Below the pieces are notes generated by a model. The model saw only the letters and a list, made by a program, of their open reading frames with translations. It did no database searches and was not told where the DNA came from. This document shows, piece after piece, positions 18,005 to 36,866 of a stretch of DNA of 64,000 nt. A program made the position numbers and the translations under genes. The stretch spans positions 2,914,001 through 2,978,000 of the forward strand of contig NZ_CP116968.1 in the NCBI RefSeq assembly GCF_032051675.1. Direction: 5' to 3'. This stretch comes from Candidatus Nitrospira neomarina (lineage in GTDB: Bacteria > Nitrospirota > Nitrospiria > Nitrospirales > UBA8639). Position 1 is the stretch's first letter, and the number at the start of each line of letters is the position of its first letter.

Positions 18005-19294
18005 TTACAGCCAGTTCACCCGCTCCGCCGGGCGGATGTAAATCGGCTCTTCCACTTGCTGCCGTACCGCTTCCTTGCCCGATTTGTTGAACCCCAACAC
18101 CGTGTCGTTGTACATCTCAAACTTCCGCCCATGGATTTGGGTTTCAAACACTTTCGGCCCCGGAATCACGTCATACCGGAAGATGATCTGTTGGCTCGCC
18201 CGCCACAACTGCAGCACCGCCAACAACTCCCGGCTCGGCACCAGATACTTCTCAATCGCATTATCCACCCCCGGCCCGAACATCTGCCGGATGTAGCCTC
18301 GCGGCGCCTGCCGCGGGGGGATATAAAACCCGTTGGGTTCCGTGCCCCATTGCGGATACAACGGCAACGCCACTTGTTCCACCCGGATGGTATAGTACAA
18401 CGGATTCCAGCGATCTTCCGCCCAGAGCCCGTCATCGCCCACCTTCACCAACCCTTGCAGCCGGATTTTGCCCACGCACGCCGCCATACACCGCGTCTCC
18501 ATCGGCTCACCCCCCGTTAAGGGGTCTTTGCCTTCCACCCGCGGATAGCACGCAATACACTTCTCACTCACCCGCGTCGTGCCCCGGTACATCGGCTTTT
18601 TAAACGGACATTGCTCCACACACTTCTTGTACCCCCGGCACCGGTTCTGGTCGATCAACACAATCCCGTCTTCCGGCCGCTTGTAGATGGCCTTCCGCGG
18701 ACACGCCGCCAGGCACCCCGGATACGTACAGTGATTACAGATGCGTTGCAGGTAGAAGAAGTACGTCTCATGCTCCGGCAAGCTGCTGCCTTGCATTTTC
18801 CACGGCTCTTCTTTCGTAAACCCCGTCTTATCGACCCCTTCCACGATCGCCCGCATCGAGGTCGCCGTATCTTCATAAATATTCACAAACCGCCATTCCT
18901 GGTCGGTCGGGATGTAGCCAATGGCCGCCTGCCCGATCTTGGCGCCCGCGTCAAAGATCGTCATCCCTTCAAACACTCCGTACGGCGCATGATGTTTGCG
19001 GCCCACCCGCACGTTCCACACCTGCCCGCCCGGATTGACCTGCTCAATCAACTGCGTGATCTTGACATCGTAGAACTGCGGATAGCCCCCGTACGGCTTC
19101 GTCTCCACGTTGTTCCACCACATGTATTCCTGCCCTTTGCTGAACAGCCACGTCGACTTGTCCGCCATCGAGCAGGTTTGACACGCCAAACACCGGTTGA
19201 TGTTAAAGACAAACGCAAACTGCCATTTCGGATGCCGCTCCTCATAGGGATACAGCATCTTTCGTCCTAACTGCCAGTTATACACTTCAGGCAT
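18005..19294 (-). CDS. nxrB: Nitrite oxidoreductase beta subunit, copy 1 (NxrB)
   Basis: The protein has 429 aa. NxrB carries the electron-transfer Fe-S clusters that lead electrons from the molybdenum site in NxrA. Four cysteine groups are visible: CLACQTCSMAD (C35, C38, C41, with Asp where the fourth Cys is expected), CNHCTYPGCLAACP, CRGYKKCVEQCP and CIACYP with CMAACVG. The ATG at 19294 has a GGAGG ribosome site and begins MPEVYNWQLGRKM, as in known Nitrospira NxrB. A GTG-type extension to 19348 is open but unsupported. There is no signal peptide, so export would ride on NxrA's Tat signal. The protein is identical to copy 2 at 31431-32720. Confidence 0.97.
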   Translation of the reverse strand: MPEVYNWQLGRKMLYPYEERHPKWQFAFVFNINRCLACQTCSMADKSTWLFSKGQEYMWWNNVETKPYGGYPQFYDVKITQLIEQVNPGGQVWNVRVGRKHHAPYGVFEGMTIFDAGAKIGQAAIGYIPTDQEWRFVNIYEDTATSMRAIVEGVDKTGFTKEEPWKMQGSSLPEHETYFFYLQRICNHCTYPGCLAACPRKAIYKRPEDGIVLIDQNRCRGYKKCVEQCPFKKPMYRGTTRVSEKCIACYPRVEGKDPLTGGEPMETRCMAACVGKIRLQGLVKVGDDGLWAEDRWNPLYYTIRVEQVALPLYPQWGTEPNGFYIPPRQAPRGYIRQMFGPGVDNAIEKYLVPSRELLAVLQLWRASQQIIFRYDVIPGPKVFETQIHGRKFEMYNDTVLGFNKSGKEAVRQQVEEPIYIRPAERVNWL

Positions 19295-19352
19295 TGTCGT
19301 CCTCCGTTTCGGTGAAAATTTCGGGGCTGACCAGGCACCGCCAGCCAACCCT
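18005..19352. repeat. Long direct repeat, copy 1 (nxrB1 unit)
   Basis: From the stop codon of nxrB1 through its start and upstream to the loop of the hairpin at 19344, this stretch (about 1348 bases) appears identical to 31431-32778. The translations agree in all frames I compared. The first difference on the right is in the hairpin loop (C at 19353, T at 32779), after which about 28 more bases match. Confidence 0.9.
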
Positions 19353-19361
19353 CAGGTTGGC
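19344..19361 (-). promoter_or_regulatory. Hairpin with the receiver's stop codon in its loop, upstream of nxrB1
   Basis: On the minus strand GCCAACC-TGAG-GGTTGGC forms a perfect 7-bp stem with a four-base loop. The loop holds the stop codon TGA of the receiver gene, and nxrB1 starts 50 bases further on. There is no U-run, so it is not a terminator. The same stem with loop TAAG (stop TAA) precedes nxrB2. Confidence 0.75.
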
Positions 19362-19768
19362 AACCCCCCGGTATCAACCCAATTTAACTGTCGCATCTTT
19401 CTTACAGCCATCGCTTCATTCACGATAGAACCTAACACACTCAGATCTATCGTTTTGAGCAGGACTTCGCAGCGCCCGAGTTGTTTCACGGCCTGCAAGT
19501 CCACCAGGCCTTCATACGCCGTAAAAATTACAGTAGGAGTGGATGAAACCTTTCTCACTGCCCGCACGGTTTCCACCCCATTCATCCCACCCATTTTATA
19601 GTCCACCAAGATCACATCAGGCTCATCCCTATGATCTCTGATAAATTCCATCAAGGCCTCTCCCGAATCAAAGGCACGTACCGTGCAATGTAACCGAGAA
19701 AGTTTTTTCGCGATGTTTACACGAATCACCTCATCATCATCCACCACAAATACATAGGGTTTGCTCAC
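19352..19768 (-). CDS. Single-domain response regulator (receiver only) between nxrA1 and nxrB1
   Basis: A 138-aa CheY-like receiver with no output domain. The acidic pocket D10-D12, phospho-acceptor D56 (ILVDYKMGG), T83 (IFTAYEG) and K105 (LLKT, without the usual following Pro) are present, so phosphorylation is plausible. The start is GTG with only a weak AGGA upstream, and it lies inside an out-of-frame mini-ORF that has a strong ribosome site. The gene is flanked by nxrA1 and nxrB1 on the same strand. A paralogue holds the same place in copy 2. The N-terminal halves match closely, residues 78-130 diverge, and the last nine residues match again. Confidence 0.9.
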   Translation of the reverse strand: MSKPYVFVVDDDEVIRVNIAKKLSRLHCTVRAFDSGEALMEFIRDHRDEPDVILVDYKMGGMNGVETVRAVRKVSSTPTVIFTAYEGLVDLQAVKQLGRCEVLLKTIDLSVLGSIVNEAMAVRKMRQLNWVDTGGLPT

Positions 19769-19864: not shown

Positions 19865-19933
19865 GGAGGCTGGGGGAGGTATTCGCAATGTTTCTTTCTA
19901 GACGGCAATCAAGAAAAAAAACCCCCAGCCTCC
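19865..19933 (-). ncRNA. Hairpin after nxrA1 whose loop is complementary to the nxrA1 ribosome site and start
   Basis: On the minus strand a 12-bp perfect stem (GGAGGCTGGGGG with CCCCCAGCCTCC) encloses a 45-base loop directly after the nxrA1 stop. The loop holds the reverse complement of AATGTTTCTTTCTAGACG, which is the nxrA1 start codon and first codons (23362-23379). It also holds ACCTCC, complementary to the nxrA1 Shine-Dalgarno sequence. No U-run follows in this copy. Read on the plus strand, the loop looks like an inverted nxrA leader (GGAGGT, then ATG and codons for FLSRRQ). A regulatory RNA role is an inference. Confidence 0.5.
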
Positions 19934-19940
19934 AACTCAC

Positions 19941-22900
19941 CTACACTTTGATCTTAATATGATCACCCTTCAGCCATTTGATCATGAACTCATTCTCCTG
20001 GCCTGGCGTGAACCCGGTCCGGACCGGTTCCCACGGCCCCCGACCACCGATGCCGCCATCCTCCGCTTTCGTGATCCGGATGAGACATTCCTTCGGCGTC
20101 GTATTGACCGCATGATGATCAATCGCAAAACCCCATTTGAATTTCCAGGCAACTGGATGTTTACCCGGTAACGAGTCGGTTTGATGCATCGGCATCAGCC
20201 AACTACGAGTAAAGGACTGCTGCGCTCCATACCGGAAGTTCGATTGATAGCCGGTATCCAGTGCAATCGCCCGTCCGTCCGGCCGGGTTTCATGCCCCTT
20301 TACCGACTTCGCCGTCGACACGAACGGCGCATGCTTGGCCATCGTGACATGGTACGGGAAGGCCGGGTTGTACTTCGCCCGGATCATCAATCGCGCTACC
20401 TTGTAATAGGGATCGCTGGGCTTCCAGCCACGATACGGCCGGTCCACCGGGTTCCCATCGACGTAGACATAGTCCCCGTCGTTGATCCCACGATCTTTGG
20501 CCGCTGATGGGTTGATATGGATTTGATGTTCACCCACCCCTGGCGTCCGCTTATCCATCCGATAGGCATCACCAAAGTTGGATTCATACATCTGCACCCA
20601 GTCATTCACCGACCATTGGCTATGCACCCGATGCCGGGTCTTCGGCGTTACGCAATAGAACTGATACCCCTTCTCCCAGAGCGGATTGGCGTATCGTTTA
20701 ATTTCCGCCCAGGGCAACTTGATGTTGCGGACGGTTTTGTCGTCATGATGTTGCGCCGTGATCGGCACACCATAGTCATCCGGCCGGATATACGGATTGG
20801 ATGACATAATCGCATTTGGCAAATAGGGAGTGGCCTCTGGCCCTTCACGATGCACGATGAAGTTTTCCCCATATTCAATGGCTTCCGGCTCCACCCGGTA
20901 GGTCTCCAGGCGACCGCTGCGGGTCCACATCGGTTTCGATTCGTTGGTCTCTTCCCAAAATGGATGTCGAGGATAGGTCCGGGTCATCACCATCCAACCC
21001 TTTTCCGATTTCAACATCGTGTCCGCGTTATACCCATAGGAACAGTTACCGGCATCCAACAATCGTTGGAGGTACACGTCCACGCGATTGTCATAGACAA
21101 ATTTGAAGTAATCGCGGAACCGGCCATCACCGGTCATTTCGGTGAGTTTAGCCGCCACGCCCGCCACCGTATCCAAATCGTTCCGCGTGTCATACAACGG
21201 CCGGATGCCGCCTTTCCATACTTGGAACCATGGATTCGACACCGTCGCCGTATGCTCTGGATAGGTAAACTCCATCCAGGTATTCACGGCAAACGACACA
21301 TCGAAATGGTTGACATCCGAGGTCATTTCCACTTCTTGATGCACGAGACATTCATTATGCGGATCCACGTTCTTGACCATGTCATAATGGTGCTTCGAAT
21401 TATTCAACACATTCACGTTGGCCACCCACCGGAATTTACTCGGTGTCGGCATATGCGTCTTTCCGGTAAACACCCGACGACCATATTTGGGCGTATTCAC
21501 AATCAACGCCGTATCGCCGTGATTCCAATATCCGACTTCTTCCCCATAGTAGTAACTTCTGGTTTTTATTTCTTTTCCATGAGCATTGGGGTCCGTCGTG
21601 ATCTTGAATGGATCCTCTCCGGTATGCACAGCAAGACCGGATCCTGACCATGGTGTTGCCGCCCATGTACCCGCCTTGTAATTCCCGGACCAGGTATGGC
21701 AACCGCTCCCGAATTTCCCCATATTTCCGGAATAAATGAGCGTCAATGCCGCCGCACGACCGTTTTGCGTCATGTGGAAGTAATGGCACACACCCTCTCC
21801 GTTATGAATAGCCGCCGGTTTGACCGTACCCATATCTCGCGCCCACCGAACGATCAGATCCTTCGGCGACCGACAGATTTGATGGACCGTATCCAAATCA
21901 TAGTCTTGCAGATGGACTTGATACATTTGGAAAATCGGCATCACGTCCACTTCCCGGCCGGTAAGCAACCGAACCCGATGCGTCCCCGTCAACGCCGGAT
22001 CAATACCACTCTTCTTGAAATGCCAGCCTACCAATTCACGATGAATGGGTACCGCTTGATTTTTATTCAGATCCCAGACCATGATTCCCCCTAACCTGGC
22101 GATTTCCGCAGGTTTCAGGGTCTGCACTTTGCCCGAATAGGTACTGGTAAAATCAGGAAACTGGTAATCTTTAATGACATCACGCGGATCTAAATATTGA
22201 AGGGTATCGGTACGAACCAGCAGTGGCATATCGGTGTTGGCCCGCACGAAATCCGCATCGAACAAACCCTCATCCACGATCATTTTGCAGGCCCCTAAAA
22301 AGAAGGACCCATCTGACTCGGGACGGATGGGAATCCAGTAGTCGGCTCGATATGCCGTCGGATTGTATTCCGGGGTAATGACCGCAATTCGCGCACCCCG
22401 TTCAATCGACTCCAGTTTCCAGTGGGCTTCCGGCATCTTGTTTTCGACGAAGTTTTTACCCCAACTGGTGTTGAATTTACAGAACCGCATATCTGCCAAA
22501 TCGATATCGCAATTTTGAGTCCCATTCCACCAGGGCTGGGAAGGGTCCTGGTCGCCGTGCCAGGTATAGTTATTCCAGTATCGTCCTCCTTGAGCATTTT
22601 CAGGCCCGACTTTTCTGACGTAGGAATCCAATAGAGCCCCGCAGCCGCCATTCATCCGGGTAATGCCCATTTTCCCAATGATACCCAAAACAGGCATACC
22701 GGCCCGGAATTTAAATGACCGGACTCCAGAGCCTTTCATCATTTCAATCATCTCCGGTGGATAGCCTTGCTCACGCAGTTTGCGCGCCCCATATTCTCCG
22801 CTATACCGGTTGGCAATGATGATCATAGCCTTAGCCAAATAGGTAAACGCCGTATCCCAGGACACCCGCAACATGTCGTCCAAATACCGCGCATTAAACT

Positions 22901-23378
22901 TGTATTTCGTCTGAATAGCAGGAGTGAATTCCGGGCTTCCGTCATCCATCCATTCCTTCCACCCTCGACGCATCAAGGGCCCCTTTAAACGGTATGGACC
23001 ATACACCCGACGATGCATCGTAAAACCCTTCAAACACATACGGGGGTTGTGCGCGAACGTCCCACGGTTGCCATAGAGATCTTCATATGTTTGATGGTCA
23101 TAATTTTGCTCAACCCGCATCACGACCCCGTTCCGCACAAACGCACGAATGCGGCAGGCATGGGTATCGTTGGGGGAACAAACCCAGGTAAACGAACTGT
23201 CATAGCGATATTGGTCGTGGTAGACCCGCTCCCATGAACGGTCAGGATATTCACCAAGGGGGTTACCCACTTCAATGACTGGCTGCAAGGCGGTTAAGGC
23301 CAGAGCCTTATCGGCAAGTGCGACTGCCGCCACAGTCCCGGCAGAAACTTTCAAGAATTGACGTCTAGAAAGAAACAT
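19941..23378 (-). CDS. nxrA: Nitrite oxidoreductase alpha subunit, copy 1 (NxrA, molybdopterin catalytic subunit)
   Basis: A 1145-aa type II DMSO-reductase-family protein that oxidises nitrite to nitrate at a bis-MGD molybdenum centre. It begins with a Tat signal (LSRRQFLKVSAG, then a hydrophobic stretch ending ALADKALA), so the enzyme is exported folded. The N-terminal Fe-S region shows WVCSPNDTHACRIR and NPRMCLKG. The start ATG at 23378 has a strong AAGGAGG ribosome site; the ten codons before it in frame lack one. It is first in a unit followed by the antisense-like hairpin, the receiver and nxrB1. Copy 2 at 33377 is closely similar but differs in patches. The C-terminal 250 residues are nearly the same. 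Confidence 0.97.
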   Translation of the reverse strand: MFLSRRQFLKVSAGTVAAVALADKALALTALQPVIEVGNPLGEYPDRSWERVYHDQYRYDSSFTWVCSPNDTHACRIRAFVRNGVVMRVEQNYDHQTYEDLYGNRGTFAHNPRMCLKGFTMHRRVYGPYRLKGPLMRRGWKEWMDDGSPEFTPAIQTKYKFNARYLDDMLRVSWDTAFTYLAKAMIIIANRYSGEYGARKLREQGYPPEMIEMMKGSGVRSFKFRAGMPVLGIIGKMGITRMNGGCGALLDSYVRKVGPENAQGGRYWNNYTWHGDQDPSQPWWNGTQNCDIDLADMRFCKFNTSWGKNFVENKMPEAHWKLESIERGARIAVITPEYNPTAYRADYWIPIRPESDGSFFLGACKMIVDEGLFDADFVRANTDMPLLVRTDTLQYLDPRDVIKDYQFPDFTSTYSGKVQTLKPAEIARLGGIMVWDLNKNQAVPIHRELVGWHFKKSGIDPALTGTHRVRLLTGREVDVMPIFQMYQVHLQDYDLDTVHQICRSPKDLIVRWARDMGTVKPAAIHNGEGVCHYFHMTQNGRAAALTLIYSGNMGKFGSGCHTWSGNYKAGTWAATPWSGSGLAVHTGEDPFKITTDPNAHGKEIKTRSYYYGEEVGYWNHGDTALIVNTPKYGRRVFTGKTHMPTPSKFRWVANVNVLNNSKHHYDMVKNVDPHNECLVHQEVEMTSDVNHFDVSFAVNTWMEFTYPEHTATVSNPWFQVWKGGIRPLYDTRNDLDTVAGVAAKLTEMTGDGRFRDYFKFVYDNRVDVYLQRLLDAGNCSYGYNADTMLKSEKGWMVMTRTYPRHPFWEETNESKPMWTRSGRLETYRVEPEAIEYGENFIVHREGPEATPYLPNAIMSSNPYIRPDDYGVPITAQHHDDKTVRNIKLPWAEIKRYANPLWEKGYQFYCVTPKTRHRVHSQWSVNDWVQMYESNFGDAYRMDKRTPGVGEHQIHINPSAAKDRGINDGDYVYVDGNPVDRPYRGWKPSDPYYKVARLMIRAKYNPAFPYHVTMAKHAPFVSTAKSVKGHETRPDGRAIALDTGYQSNFRYGAQQSFTRSWLMPMHQTDSLPGKHPVAWKFKWGFAIDHHAVNTTPKECLIRITKAEDGGIGGRGPWEPVRTGFTPGQENEFMIKWLKGDHIKIKV

Positions 23379-23509
23379 TAAAAGACCTCCTTTTTTTAAA
23401 AAACTCATTACGGATAGCCATAATTAATTAAAGATTCCGTAATTGGACTTCAACCCAGACCTGCTTGCACCTCCTTTCTTACCATCCCGATTCAACCGAT
23501 AATGAACGA

Positions 23510-31430: not shown

Positions 31431-32720
31431 TTACAGCCAGTTCACCCGCTCCGCCGGGCGGATGTAAATCGGCTCTTCCACTTGCTGCCGTACCGCTTCC
31501 TTGCCCGATTTGTTGAACCCCAACACCGTGTCGTTGTACATCTCAAACTTCCGCCCATGGATTTGGGTTTCAAACACTTTCGGCCCCGGAATCACGTCAT
31601 ACCGGAAGATGATCTGTTGGCTCGCCCGCCACAACTGCAGCACCGCCAACAACTCCCGGCTCGGCACCAGATACTTCTCAATCGCATTATCCACCCCCGG
31701 CCCGAACATCTGCCGGATGTAGCCTCGCGGCGCCTGCCGCGGGGGGATATAAAACCCGTTGGGTTCCGTGCCCCATTGCGGATACAACGGCAACGCCACT
31801 TGTTCCACCCGGATGGTATAGTACAACGGATTCCAGCGATCTTCCGCCCAGAGCCCGTCATCGCCCACCTTCACCAACCCTTGCAGCCGGATTTTGCCCA
31901 CGCACGCCGCCATACACCGCGTCTCCATCGGCTCACCCCCCGTTAAGGGGTCTTTGCCTTCCACCCGCGGATAGCACGCAATACACTTCTCACTCACCCG
32001 CGTCGTGCCCCGGTACATCGGCTTTTTAAACGGACATTGCTCCACACACTTCTTGTACCCCCGGCACCGGTTCTGGTCGATCAACACAATCCCGTCTTCC
32101 GGCCGCTTGTAGATGGCCTTCCGCGGACACGCCGCCAGGCACCCCGGATACGTACAGTGATTACAGATGCGTTGCAGGTAGAAGAAGTACGTCTCATGCT
32201 CCGGCAAGCTGCTGCCTTGCATTTTCCACGGCTCTTCTTTCGTAAACCCCGTCTTATCGACCCCTTCCACGATCGCCCGCATCGAGGTCGCCGTATCTTC
32301 ATAAATATTCACAAACCGCCATTCCTGGTCGGTCGGGATGTAGCCAATGGCCGCCTGCCCGATCTTGGCGCCCGCGTCAAAGATCGTCATCCCTTCAAAC
32401 ACTCCGTACGGCGCATGATGTTTGCGGCCCACCCGCACGTTCCACACCTGCCCGCCCGGATTGACCTGCTCAATCAACTGCGTGATCTTGACATCGTAGA
32501 ACTGCGGATAGCCCCCGTACGGCTTCGTCTCCACGTTGTTCCACCACATGTATTCCTGCCCTTTGCTGAACAGCCACGTCGACTTGTCCGCCATCGAGCA
32601 GGTTTGACACGCCAAACACCGGTTGATGTTAAAGACAAACGCAAACTGCCATTTCGGATGCCGCTCCTCATAGGGATACAGCATCTTTCGTCCTAACTGC
32701 CAGTTATACACTTCAGGCAT
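31431..32720 (-). CDS. nxrB: Nitrite oxidoreductase beta subunit, copy 2 (NxrB)
   Basis: The protein has 429 aa, identical to copy 1, including the GGAGG ribosome site and the Fe-S cysteine groups described there. It is preceded by the copy 2 receiver and hairpin and followed by a zinc-ribbon gene rather than by a clear terminator. Identity at the DNA level, including silent positions, against divergence of the flanking genes, points to recent gene conversion or strong ongoing homogenisation. Either alpha subunit can therefore pair with the same beta subunit. Confidence 0.97.
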   Translation of the reverse strand: MPEVYNWQLGRKMLYPYEERHPKWQFAFVFNINRCLACQTCSMADKSTWLFSKGQEYMWWNNVETKPYGGYPQFYDVKITQLIEQVNPGGQVWNVRVGRKHHAPYGVFEGMTIFDAGAKIGQAAIGYIPTDQEWRFVNIYEDTATSMRAIVEGVDKTGFTKEEPWKMQGSSLPEHETYFFYLQRICNHCTYPGCLAACPRKAIYKRPEDGIVLIDQNRCRGYKKCVEQCPFKKPMYRGTTRVSEKCIACYPRVEGKDPLTGGEPMETRCMAACVGKIRLQGLVKVGDDGLWAEDRWNPLYYTIRVEQVALPLYPQWGTEPNGFYIPPRQAPRGYIRQMFGPGVDNAIEKYLVPSRELLAVLQLWRASQQIIFRYDVIPGPKVFETQIHGRKFEMYNDTVLGFNKSGKEAVRQQVEEPIYIRPAERVNWL

Positions 32721-32778
32721 TGTCGTCCTCCGTTTCGGTGAAAATTTCGGGGCTGACCAGGCACCGCCAGCCAACCCT
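31431..32778. repeat. Long direct repeat, copy 2 (nxrB2 unit)
   Basis: Partner of 18005-19352. The left edge of identity is exactly the nxrB stop codon: the bases before it differ at once, and the copy 1 terminator is absent here. The right edge is in the hairpin loop before the receiver stop. Confidence 0.9.
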
Positions 32779-32787
32779 TAGGTTGGC
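32770..32787 (-). promoter_or_regulatory. Hairpin with the receiver's stop codon in its loop, upstream of nxrB2
   Basis: GCCAACC-TAAG-GGTTGGC on the minus strand. The stem is the same as in copy 1 and the only change is in the loop (stop TAA for TGA), so pairing is kept. nxrB2 starts 50 bases downstream. Confidence 0.75.
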
Positions 32788-33197
32788 AACCCCCCGGTAT
32801 CAACCCAACAATCAATTTTACGTAAATTCTTTAGGGCCATGACCCCGTTCACCATATGAATGAGATTGTGAAGATCTACGGTTTTGATCATGACCTCACA
32901 ATTCCCAATTTCTTTTATTTCCTGCGGATCTATCCTACCTTCATATGCGGTAAAGATAATGGCTGGAACAGAAGAGAATTTTCGAATGGCATGCAGGGTT
33001 TCCACCCCATTCATCCCACCCATTTTATAATCCACCAAGATCACATCAGGCTCATCCCTATGATCTCTGAAAAATTCCATCAAGGCCTCTCCCGAATCAA
33101 AGGCACGTACCGTGCAATGTAACCGAGAAAGTTTTTTCGCAATATTTACACGAACCACCTCATCATCATCCACCACAAATACAGAGGGTATGTTCAC
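32778..33197 (-). CDS. Single-domain response regulator (receiver only) between nxrA2 and nxrB2
   Basis: A 139-aa receiver paralogous to the copy 1 protein. D10-D12, phospho-acceptor D56, T83 and K105 (MIKT, again with no Pro after Lys) are kept. Residues 6-57 are nearly the same as copy 1, residues 68-130 differ widely, and the C-terminal WVDTGGLPT is the same again because it lies next to the homogenised nxrB tract. The start is GTG inside an out-of-frame mini-ORF. No kinase gene is nearby. It may act by protein contact, for example on one of the sigma-54 activators, but this is speculation. Confidence 0.9.
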   Translation of the reverse strand: MNIPSVFVVDDDEVVRVNIAKKLSRLHCTVRAFDSGEALMEFFRDHRDEPDVILVDYKMGGMNGVETLHAIRKFSSVPAIIFTAYEGRIDPQEIKEIGNCEVMIKTVDLHNLIHMVNGVMALKNLRKIDCWVDTGGLPT

Positions 33198-33291: not shown

Positions 33292-33369
33292 AAAAAAAAG
33301 GAGGCTGGGGGGAGGTATTCATCATATTTCTTTCTAGACGTCAATATAGAAAAAATATCCCCAGCCTCC
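33292..33369 (-). ncRNA. Hairpin plus U-run after nxrA2; loop complementary to the nxrA1 ribosome site and start
   Basis: On the minus strand an 11-bp stem (GGAGGCTGGGG with CCCCAGCCTCC) encloses a 48-base loop and is followed by eight T residues, so the element can act as an intrinsic terminator. The loop carries the complement of TTTCTTTCTAGACGTCAAT (19 bases at 33327-33345), which are the first codons of nxrA1. It also carries ACCTCC against its Shine-Dalgarno. The start region of the adjacent nxrA2 no longer matches. It could be released as a 3'-end small RNA. The function is inferred. Confidence 0.55.
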
Positions 33370-33376
33370 AACTCAC

Positions 33377-36300
33377 CTACACTTTGATCTTAATATGATC
33401 ACCCTTCAGCCATTTGATCATGAACTCATTCTCCTGGCCTGGCGTGAACCCGGTCCGGACCGGTTCCCACGGCCCACGTCCGCCAATGCCACCATCCTCC
33501 GCTTTCGTGATTCGGATGAGACATTCCTTCGGAACCGTGTTGACCGCATGATGGTCGATTTCAAAACCCCATTTGAATTTCCATTTATTCGCCATTTTGC
33601 CTGGCAACGAGTCCAATTGATGCATCGGCATCAGCCAACTGCGTGTAAACGACTGCTGCGCCCCATACCGGAAGTTCGATTGATAGCCGGTATCCAGTGC
33701 AATCGCCCGTCCGTCCGGTCGGGTTTCATGCCCCTTTACCGACTTCGCCGTCGACACGAACGGCGCATGTTTGGCCATCGTGACATGGTACGGGAAGGCC
33801 GGATTGTACTTCGCCCGGATCATCAACCGCGCCACCTTGTAATAGGGGTCGCTGGGCTTCCACCCACGATACGGCCGGTCCACCGGGTTCCCATCGACGT
33901 AGACATAGTCCCCGTCATTGATGCCACGATCTTTGGCCGCTGATGGGTTGATATGGATTTGATGTTCACCCACCCCTGGCGTCCGCTTATCCATTCGATA
34001 GGCATCGCCAAAGTTGGATTCATACATCTGCACCCAGTCATTCACCGACCATTGGCTATGCACCCGATGCCGGGTCTTCGGCGTCACGCAATAGAACTGA
34101 TACCCCTTCTCCCAGAGTGGATTGGCGTATCGTTTAATTTCCGCCCATGGCAACTTGATGTTGCGGACGGTTTTGTCGTCATGATGTTGTGCCGTGATCG
34201 GAATCCCGTAGTCATCCGGCCGGATATACGGATTGGATGACATGATCGCATTCGGCAAATAGGGAGTGGCCTCCGTCCCTTCCCGATGCGAGATGAAGTT
34301 TTCCCCATATTCAATGGCTTCCGGCTCCACCCGGTAGGTCTCCAGGCGACCGCTACGGGTCCACATCGGCTTTGACTCGTTGACCTCTTCCCACAATGGG
34401 ATACGAGGATAGGTCCGGGTCATCACCATCCAACCCTTTTCCGATTTCAACATCGTGTCAGCCGAATACCCGTAGGAGGTGCTACCGGCATCCAACAACC
34501 GTTGAACATACACGTCCACGCGGTTGTCATAGACAAATTTAAAGTAATCGCGGAACCGGCCATCACCCGTTATTTCGGTGAGTTTGGCCGCCACGCCCGC
34601 CACCGTATCCAAATCGTTCCGCGTGTCATACAACGGCCGGATGCCGCCTTTCCATACCTGCATCCAGGGGTTGGAGACGGTGGCGGTCATTTCAGGATAG
34701 GTAAACTCCATCCACCCGTTCACTGCAAATGACACATCGGCGTGATTCACATCTGATGTCATTTCAATGTCCTGAGTCACAATCGCTTCAATGTGGGGAT
34801 CCACATTTTTGACCATGTCATAATGGTGTTTGGAATTATTGAGAATATTGACATTCGCCACCCATCGAAGCTTACTCGGCGTCGGCATATGCGTCTTTCC
34901 CGTAAATACCCGACGGCCATACTTGGGCGTATTCACAATCAACGCCGTATCGCCGTGGTTCCAGTACGTCGTTTCTTCACCATAATAGTATGGGCGGTAA
35001 TTAATCTCTTTCCCATGGGCATTCGGATCTGTCGTGATCTTGAAAGGATTTTCCCCGGTGTGGATCCCAATGCCTTCCCCCGACCATGGCGTGGCCGCCC
35101 AAACACCAACCTTATAGTTTCCTGACCATGTATGACATCCCGTACCGAATTTCCCCATGTTTCCGGTCAGGGTCATCACCATGGCGGCCGCACGCCCCAT
35201 CGACGTCATATGAAAATAATGGCAGACGCCTTCTCCATTATGAATGGCGGCCGGTTTGATGGTCCCGTTATCTCGAGCCCATCGCACAATAAGGTCTTTC
35301 GGGCATCGATTAATTTGGTGGACCGTATCCAGATCGTAATCCTGAAGATGGACCTGATACATCTGGAAAAGGGGCATGACATCTGCCTCCCTCCCACTCA
35401 GTAGTTTCACCCTGAACGATCCCGTCAACGCCGGATCGAGACCGCTGTTCTTAAAGTGCCAACCTACCAGTTCTCGGTGAAGCGGGACCGCCTTGTCCTG
35501 ATTGAGATCCCACACCATAAACCCTCCAAGGCGAGCGATCTGAGAAGGCGAAAGCCCTTGCACTTTGCCCGAATACGTTTTGGAGAAATCCGGGAAGGCA
35601 TAATCTTGAATGACATCACGCGGATCCAAATATTGCAGAGTATCCGTGCGAATCAACAAGGGGAAATCCGTGCTGGATCGAATAAAATCGCTGTCCTGAA
35701 GACCATCGTCTAAAATAATTTTGCAGGCCCCGAGGAATAACGCTCCATCTGTCTCGGGACGGACCGGCATCCAATAGTCGGCCCGTTGTGCCGTGGGATT
35801 GTATTCCGGGGTAATGACCACCACGCGACCACCCCGTTCAATCGACTCCAGTTTCCAATGGGCTTCGGGCATCTTGTTTTCAACGAAGTTTTTGCCCCAA
35901 CTTGTATTCATCTTGCTGAATCGCATATCAGAAAGATCACAATCGATGGCTTGGGCTCCGGACCAGAATGGTTGCGAAGGATCCTGATCACCATGCCAGG
36001 TCAAATTATTAAAATACCGCCCACCCTGGGCATTTTCCGGTCCAACCTTTCTCACCCAACTATCCAACAGCGCTCCACATCCACCGTTCATCCGGGTAAT
36101 GCCCATTTTGCCTATGACACCTAACACGGGCATACCGGCACGGAATTTCATGCTCCGGACTCCTGAGCCCTTCATCATCTCGATCATTTCCGGAGGATAC
36201 CCTTGTTCCCGTAATCGCCTCGCACCGGCCTCGCCGCTATACCGGTTGGCGATCACGATCATGGCCTTGGCCAAATAGGTAAACGCGGTATCCCAGGAGA

Positions 36301-36814
36301 CCCGCAACATATCATCCAAATAGCGTGCATTGAATTTATATTTCGTCATCACCGTTGGGTCTAATTCAGGACTTCCGTCATCCATCCAGGTTTTCCAGCC
36401 ACGCCGCATCAGGGGCCCCTTTAAGCGGTATGGACCATACACCCGGCGATGGTAGGTATACCCCTTCAAACACATCCGGGGATTATGGGCAAAGGTTCCC
36501 CGATTCCCGTACATATCCTCATAAGTTTGATGATCGTAGTTTTGCTCTACGCGCATCACGACCCCGTTCCGGACAAACGCACGAATACGACAGGCATGGG
36601 TATCGTTGGGGGAACAAACCCAGGTAAAGGAACTGTCATACCGGTATTGATCGTGATAGACCCTCTCCCACGAGCGATCCGGGTAGTCACCCAATGGATT
36701 GCCTACCTCCACAACCGGTAGCAATGCCGTCAACGCCAGCGCATTATCCGCCAACGCCACTGCAGCCACAGTGCCTGCTGTCATTTTTAAAAATTGTCTT
36801 TTGGTTACCAACAT
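33377..36814 (-). CDS. nxrA: Nitrite oxidoreductase alpha subunit, copy 2 (NxrA)
   Basis: The protein has 1145 aa from the ATG at 36814 (GGAGGAG ribosome site), the same length as copy 1. The N-terminal Fe-S region and the C-terminal domain agree with copy 1. Differences are gathered in blocks, for example around residues 110-140, 280-300, 380-480 and 600-650. The signal peptide reads TKRQFLKM in place of the canonical S/T-R-R-x-F-L-K, so the twin arginine is Lys-Arg. It lies 52 bases after a small membrane protein gene and probably belongs to a transcript that begins with the bd-like oxidase. No nxrC-like gamma subunit gene is visible in the window. Confidence 0.97.
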   Translation of the reverse strand: MLVTKRQFLKMTAGTVAAVALADNALALTALLPVVEVGNPLGDYPDRSWERVYHDQYRYDSSFTWVCSPNDTHACRIRAFVRNGVVMRVEQNYDHQTYEDMYGNRGTFAHNPRMCLKGYTYHRRVYGPYRLKGPLMRRGWKTWMDDGSPELDPTVMTKYKFNARYLDDMLRVSWDTAFTYLAKAMIVIANRYSGEAGARRLREQGYPPEMIEMMKGSGVRSMKFRAGMPVLGVIGKMGITRMNGGCGALLDSWVRKVGPENAQGGRYFNNLTWHGDQDPSQPFWSGAQAIDCDLSDMRFSKMNTSWGKNFVENKMPEAHWKLESIERGGRVVVITPEYNPTAQRADYWMPVRPETDGALFLGACKIILDDGLQDSDFIRSSTDFPLLIRTDTLQYLDPRDVIQDYAFPDFSKTYSGKVQGLSPSQIARLGGFMVWDLNQDKAVPLHRELVGWHFKNSGLDPALTGSFRVKLLSGREADVMPLFQMYQVHLQDYDLDTVHQINRCPKDLIVRWARDNGTIKPAAIHNGEGVCHYFHMTSMGRAAAMVMTLTGNMGKFGTGCHTWSGNYKVGVWAATPWSGEGIGIHTGENPFKITTDPNAHGKEINYRPYYYGEETTYWNHGDTALIVNTPKYGRRVFTGKTHMPTPSKLRWVANVNILNNSKHHYDMVKNVDPHIEAIVTQDIEMTSDVNHADVSFAVNGWMEFTYPEMTATVSNPWMQVWKGGIRPLYDTRNDLDTVAGVAAKLTEITGDGRFRDYFKFVYDNRVDVYVQRLLDAGSTSYGYSADTMLKSEKGWMVMTRTYPRIPLWEEVNESKPMWTRSGRLETYRVEPEAIEYGENFISHREGTEATPYLPNAIMSSNPYIRPDDYGIPITAQHHDDKTVRNIKLPWAEIKRYANPLWEKGYQFYCVTPKTRHRVHSQWSVNDWVQMYESNFGDAYRMDKRTPGVGEHQIHINPSAAKDRGINDGDYVYVDGNPVDRPYRGWKPSDPYYKVARLMIRAKYNPAFPYHVTMAKHAPFVSTAKSVKGHETRPDGRAIALDTGYQSNFRYGAQQSFTRSWLMPMHQLDSLPGKMANKWKFKWGFEIDHHAVNTVPKECLIRITKAEDGGIGGRGPWEPVRTGFTPGQENEFMIKWLKGDHIKIKV

Positions 36815-36866
36815 CAAACGCTCCTCCATACAAAGGTTGACTGTTCCGGCTCACGACACAAACCCT

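Follow-up and report, generated by a model that had tools for sequence, protein, structure and literature searches.

The window analysed here, 64,000 nucleotides of the Candidatus Nitrospira neomarina genome, carries two nxr clusters, both on the (-) strand. In the first, nxrA1 (19941..23378), encoding the NXR alpha subunit and corresponding by its peptides to N. marina NxrA_3, is followed by a single-domain response regulator (19352..19768) and by nxrB1 (18005..19348), which encodes the 4Fe-4S beta subunit and whose real start, MPEVYNWQ, lies within the listed ORF. The second cluster has the same arrangement, with nxrA2 (33377..36829; NxrA_2 of N. marina by peptide, with the Tat start MLVTKRQ), a single-domain response regulator (32778..33197) and nxrB2 (31431..32774), a direct repeat of nxrB1. 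Both regulators match Pfam PF00072 (E 4e-20). The longest nxrA1 ORF begins at 23408, yet the Shine-Dalgarno (SD) sequence GGAGGT (23385-23390) falls within that extension, and the ATG at 23376-23378 is therefore probably the real start. A third copy, nxrA3, is located outside the window in an ordinary nxrAB operon (G000:C1:3361449-3364886, where G000 is the genome of the window). Its 3′ flank forms a tight hairpin without antisense sequence.

A hairpin, H1 (19865..19933, (-) strand), begins 8 nt past the nxrA1 stop codon (19941-19943) and before the response-regulator gene. Its outer stem is a perfect 12-bp pairing (19865-19876 with 19922-19933) enclosing a 45-nt loop (19877-19921). Read on the (-) strand, the outer stem is followed by an inner A/U stem and an apical loop with UUGCCGUC, and at the 3′ side an anti-SD, ACCUCC, adjoins the 3′ stem arm. 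This anti-SD (ACCTCC in DNA) is the complement of GGAGGT at 19875-19880 and shares 2 nt with the stem. Folding of the transcribed strand gave -40.6 kcal/mol compared to -23.1 ± 3.7 for shuffles (z = -4.7), a value that none of 200 shuffles equalled. A first-pass annotation of this DNA had described a 12-bp hairpin with a 45-base loop directly after nxrA1 and a nearby ACCTCC complementary to the SD, and had suggested folding the region; coordinates, fold and anti-SD all agree with that description, apart from the overlap of the anti-SD with the stem. The observation is thus confirmed, and extends further than first described.

A hairpin of the same kind, H2 (33300..33369, (-) strand), is located 3′ of nxrA2. 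It has an 11-bp outer stem and a long inner A/U stem, and a run of 8 U (33292-33299) comes after it on the transcribed strand. H2 had been overlooked in the first-pass annotation.

Several simple identities were considered for these hairpins and dropped. A known RNA family was dropped because an Rfam search of the window returned no match at the gathering score. A dispersed repeat or MITE was rejected since significant matches in the own genome were limited to the two hairpins and the nxrA leaders. The plus strand of H1 could be read as a small protein (SD-ATG-FLSRRQ), but the start is ATA in the loops of nxrA2 and G028 (a genome of another genus, see below) and the frames are not conserved. 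An internal promoter was also dropped: no sigma-70-like promoter was seen at H1, and the single 9/12 match near H2 is at chance level.

The loop of H1 matches the beginning of nxrA1. Positions 19887-19909 are 96% complementary to 23357-23379 (23 nt, one mismatch), the top entry among inverted repeats of a 20-kb stretch, and the match spans the nxrA1 start codon and first codons, as the first-pass annotation had noticed. When the window was scanned in about 3,200 overlapping 80-nt tiles, background scores did not exceed 14. Higher scores came only from the two hairpins, from tiles that overlap them and from the nxrA1 leader (20). The match between loop and leader is therefore not a chance event.

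Within its own genome, however, the H1 loop fits the nxrA3 leader best, above that of nxrA1 itself. The antisense segment of H1 comprises 35 nt (19875..19909, (-) strand) and pairs with the SD, spacer and start of nxrA3 through 32 Watson-Crick pairs and 1 G-U pair with 2 mismatches over the 35 positions; the part that also pairs with the nxrA1 start is the 23-nt stretch described above. The alignment of loop and leader for H1 and nxrA3 reads GGAGGT-ATTCGCA-ATGTTTCTTTCTAGACGGCAAT versus GGAGGT-GTAAGCA-ATGTTTCTTTCTAGACGGCAAT. Duplex energies of the H1 loop were -68 kcal/mol with nxrA3 (shuffles of this pair, -31.5 ± 3.8), -53 with nxrA1 and -26 with nxrA2, for a general shuffle baseline of about -30 ± 4 kcal/mol. 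The H2 loop gave -55 with nxrA1, -49 with nxrA3 and -22 with its own nxrA2. By this measure the best own-genome partner of the H2 antisense segment (33311..33345, (-) strand) is the nxrA1 leader, and the H2 loop carries GACGTCAAT, like the nxrA1 leader, in place of GACGGCAAT. The start of nxrA2 (MLVTKRQ) is complementary to neither loop. The existence of nxrA3, and its better fit to the H1 loop, had escaped the first-pass annotation.

These energies bear on autoregulation, in which the nxrA1 3′ hairpin would pair with its own SD and start, in cis or on its own message, in the manner of icaR. The 23-nt match and the -53 kcal/mol duplex of H1 with its own leader are what such a reading predicts. 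Against this, H1 pairs better with nxrA3, and pairing between loop and own SD is absent for nxrA2 and for G028_b, a hairpin of the genome G028, at -22 and -29 kcal/mol, respectively, which is the shuffle level. In other genera the loops of G021 and G028 track a paralog rather than their own leader, as described below. Pairing with the own message does not appear to be a defining feature of the element, and we regard autoregulation as unlikely. The earlier description of H1 as antisense to its own ribosome site, and the duplex computation proposed with it, accordingly stand for nxrA1, whose own leader does pair but less well than nxrA3, and do not extend to the nxrA2 and G028_b loops; the accompanying idea that the element joins the mRNA ends is not general for the same reason.

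Hairpins at the same place, with different stems, are also present in two other genera of the family, and their loops follow the start region, itself diverged, of another nxrA copy of the same genome. In G021, the stem is GGGAAGTCGGGG/CCCCGGCTTCCC and the loop is antisense to GGAGGTGCATGCAgTGcTTCTTTtCAGACGGCAAg, while another nxrA of this genome starts GGAGGTGCATGCAATGTTTCTTTCCAGACGGCAAT. Loop and leader are 89% matched along 44 nt, a stretch that takes in the lineage-specific spacer GGAGGTGCATGCA. With this hairpin as a genome-wide query, the sole hits in G021 were the hairpin and that leader (E 8e-10); in sister genomes the same leader was hit. In the third genus (G028), the stem is TTGAGGGAGGAGG and the G028_b loop is antisense to 15 consecutive nt, GGAGGTATCTGCAAT, identical to the main leader of its own genome; the leader of its own gene differs (GGAGGTTTGACCTATG). 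Outer-stem changes between genera were tabulated and kept out of covariation statistics, the position-by-position homology of the diverged stems being uncertain.

We further ranked the loops against 93 distinct nxrA leaders. For G028_b, the own main leader came first of 93 with a score of 21 (next 15; leader of its own gene 8). The loops of G021_a, G028_b and G047_A1 had an own-genome leader first or tied first. For the nxrA1 loops of the window's genome and of G029, the own nxrA3 leader was at most 1 point below the best, as were nxrA1 leaders for the nxrA2 loops. In the genus of the window, the loop spacer tracks the nxrA3 spacer imperfectly, with 2 mismatches in G000 and 1 in G047. The second G021 hairpin gave weaker matches (16 and 15), and the second G028 hairpin (G028_a) no significant antisense (-42 kcal/mol, against shuffles of -31 ± 4 with a minimum of -45.5). 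An anti-SD at the 3′ end of the loop, beside the 3′ stem arm, is found in the nxrA1 and nxrA2 hairpins, G021_a and G028_b, and in most cases the inner A/U stem shows UUGCCGUC or UUGACGUC near its apex. Judged from sequence only, conserved pairing with an mRNA encoded elsewhere is found for G021_a, G028_b and G047_A1. The loop thus passes the check set in the first-pass annotation, that it track an nxrA start in relatives, except that the tracked partner is mainly a different nxrA paralog, in trans.

Distribution was compared among genomes that have three nxrA copies, complete or nearly so. G000, G029, G047, G021 and G028 each have a conventional nxrAB copy without an antisense loop and two further copies with long-loop hairpins. 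In both window clusters, and in most hairpin-bearing copies of relatives, a single-domain response regulator separates nxrA from nxrB; target copies are without it. No such hairpin was found in single-nxrA genomes, and the other nxrA 3′ flanks, including those of the multi-copy N. moscoviensis and N. defluvii, gave background scores (14 or less), with two flanks, G016 and G021_main, reaching 15. In a search of 236 genomes of the order, matches were confined to the family of the window, and a general Nitrospira feature was dropped on this ground. One exception was G048 (G048:C43, L137), where the outer stem after nxrA (GGAGGCTGGG...) is kept as in the window and the loop is unrelated and holds its own inner hairpin; a search for a target of the G048 loop found none. 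In the nxrA-nxrB spacer of G016 (L012/L139), the nxrB SD is closely preceded by a 15-nt exact complement, CTTGAAAGAAACATT, of the variant nxrA start of this genome; the complement is not part of a hairpin, and its score of 15 is borderline against the background of 14.

Among relatives, hairpin identity was 93-100%, and identity in the next 75 nt dropped to as little as 46-52% (random, 49). Between the window's genome and G047, the hairpins are 93% (nxrA1) and 97% (nxrA2) identical. Identity is 50-52% in the 75 nt past them, no higher than for shuffled sequence, and 89% at the end of the nxrA2 coding sequence. Hairpin conservation therefore equals or exceeds that of the nxrA coding end. Because the hairpins are 93-97% identical next to sequence at shuffle level, the element is, by this comparison, under purifying selection, unlike a decaying relic.

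A relic of an inverted duplication of the nxrA leader had been the alternative of the first-pass annotation. In its neutral form, an nxrA leader would have been copied by template switch and caught in a hairpin that terminates or stabilises the transcript and has no antisense role. That the sequence copies an nxrA leader in inverted orientation is plain, and G048 has the stem with a different loop. This conservation footprint, however, with the neighbouring spacer randomised, disfavours neutrality, as do the fit of loops in three genera to an own-genome leader and the anti-SD beside the stem in the four hairpins named above. We consider a neutral relic quite improbable, although an inverted leader copy may be how the element originated.

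The hairpins could alternatively serve only to stabilise the mRNA or terminate partially, setting the nxrA : nxrB ratio, with an incidental loop sequence. The conserved position of the stem, the U8 tract after H2 and the tight hairpin at the same place in target copies would fit such a role. No U tract comes after H1, and a terminator scan found no standard terminator at the hairpins, under a rule that excludes loops of this length. Loop complementarity, target tracking and loop conservation above that of the spacer would be left unexplained, and this role is very unlikely as the sole one; stabiliser or terminator and antisense roles may coexist. Least probable, and hardly credible in our view, is a DNA-level element, whether an operator bound by a protein or an inverted repeat through which nxr loci recombine. 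The nxrA 3′ and 5′ ends are indeed linked by inverted repeats of 22-23 bp, but these repeats are imperfect and short, and what they share, an SD and coding start, is not operator-like and always lies within an nxrA mRNA hairpin. Relative to the nxrA mRNA, the copied sequence is also always antisense, the orientation that an RNA mechanism requires.

Taken together, these results are best read, and we think probably correctly, as an intercistronic, 3′-end-located trans antisense element repressing translation of another nxrA paralog. H1 and H2 would be conserved RNA elements located where the nxrA cistron ends, within an nxrA / response-regulator / nxrB transcription unit, and would display the antisense of an nxrA start codon and its ribosome-binding site. 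They would act in trans, either within the abundant nxr mRNA or as a processed 3′-end RNA, H1 pairing chiefly with the nxrA3 leader and H2 with the nxrA1 (or nxrA3) leader. Such pairing would cover SD and AUG, block initiation and lower translation of the paralog, so that expression of the hairpin-bearing copies would hold the other copy down. Much of the antisense sequence lies within the inner stem and the anti-SD is partly within the outer stem; for binding, the inner stem would therefore have to open, or pairing would have to begin as a kissing contact in the apical loop. The regulatory antisense RNA first proposed is well supported in this form by conservation and target tracking, with another paralog as its main partner. 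This suggests an RNA switch choosing which NXR copy is made.

In N. marina Nb-295, each NxrA has been quantified by targeted proteomics through peptides found in that copy only (PMC8115632 Table 1). These peptides map exactly onto the genome of the window: NxrA_1 corresponds to nxrA3, NxrA_2 to nxrA2 and NxrA_3 to nxrA1, the hairpin in N. marina itself being inferred from its sister species. Between atmospheric and low O2, the predicted target, NxrA_1, went from 845 to 1924 copies/cell, NxrA_3 from 4860 to 3741 and NxrA_2 from 1154 to 851 (PMC8115632). The predicted target thus rises about two-fold while the hairpin-bearing copies go down. This reciprocal change fits the prediction of trans-repression and is not proof of it, since transcriptional control could give the same result.

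A directional RNA cascade ordering the three NXR paralogs, in which the nxrA2 hairpin would silence nxrA1 and the nxrA1 hairpin nxrA3, is a tentative extension that we consider possible but doubtful. In G021, copy a matches main, and copy b fits both of these about equally well. If the cascade were true, paralog choice, for instance by O2 level, would be set by loops co-evolving with the start of the next copy. Transcriptional regulators (PMC6606698) or different roles of the copies (PMC8115632) have been proposed to explain why Nitrospira retain several near-identical NXR copies and how they choose among them. For NXR, the enzyme on which nitrite oxidation by marine nitrifiers depends, trans-repression by the hairpins would offer a concrete, testable sequence-level mechanism: a gene copy bearing antisense against its own paralog, with a loop apparently co-evolving with its target.

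The position of the element at the end of a cistron is one that it shares with 3′-end-derived sRNAs, and it is a candidate member of that class. In Staphylococcus aureus icaR mRNA (PMC3868564), a 3′-end motif likewise pairs with the SD region and blocks initiation, but it is a short UCCCCUG acting on its own mRNA, whereas here a 28-44-nt antisense in a nested hairpin would act mainly on the mRNA of a paralog. NarS, the 3′-UTR-derived sRNA from narK that represses nirC (PMC9438474), similarly comes from the 3′ end of a message for nitrogen metabolism and acts on a different mRNA; the element here differs in its predicted target, a paralog of the parent gene, in its long pairing and in being intercistronic and known from its sequence alone. 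The autoregulatory 3′-UTR sRNAs OppZ and CarZ (PMC9438474) resemble it as 3′-end RNA feedback inside one enzyme or transport system, but OppZ acts on its own operon and the nxrA hairpin would act mainly on a duplicate operon. Compared to known 3′-end regulation, the element differs by its predicted paralog target, its pairing length and a loop that appears to co-evolve with the target. Our literature search, in an incomplete library, found no paper describing such an element.

Two further observations were made among the relatives. A bin of another genus (G024:C73, L009/L124) contains an nxrA1 contig whose protein is 99% identical to that of the window, although the other nxrA leader in the bin has the type of the bin's own genus; the contig is either contamination (7%) or transfer. 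Conventional, target-type nxrA leaders of several genera (L088, L129, L142, L140 and L019) have a small hairpin just upstream of the SD, apparently missing from the nxrA1 and nxrA2 leaders, and its arms vary (GGAC/GUCC, AGGCUG/CAGCCU and AGGCC/GGCCU).
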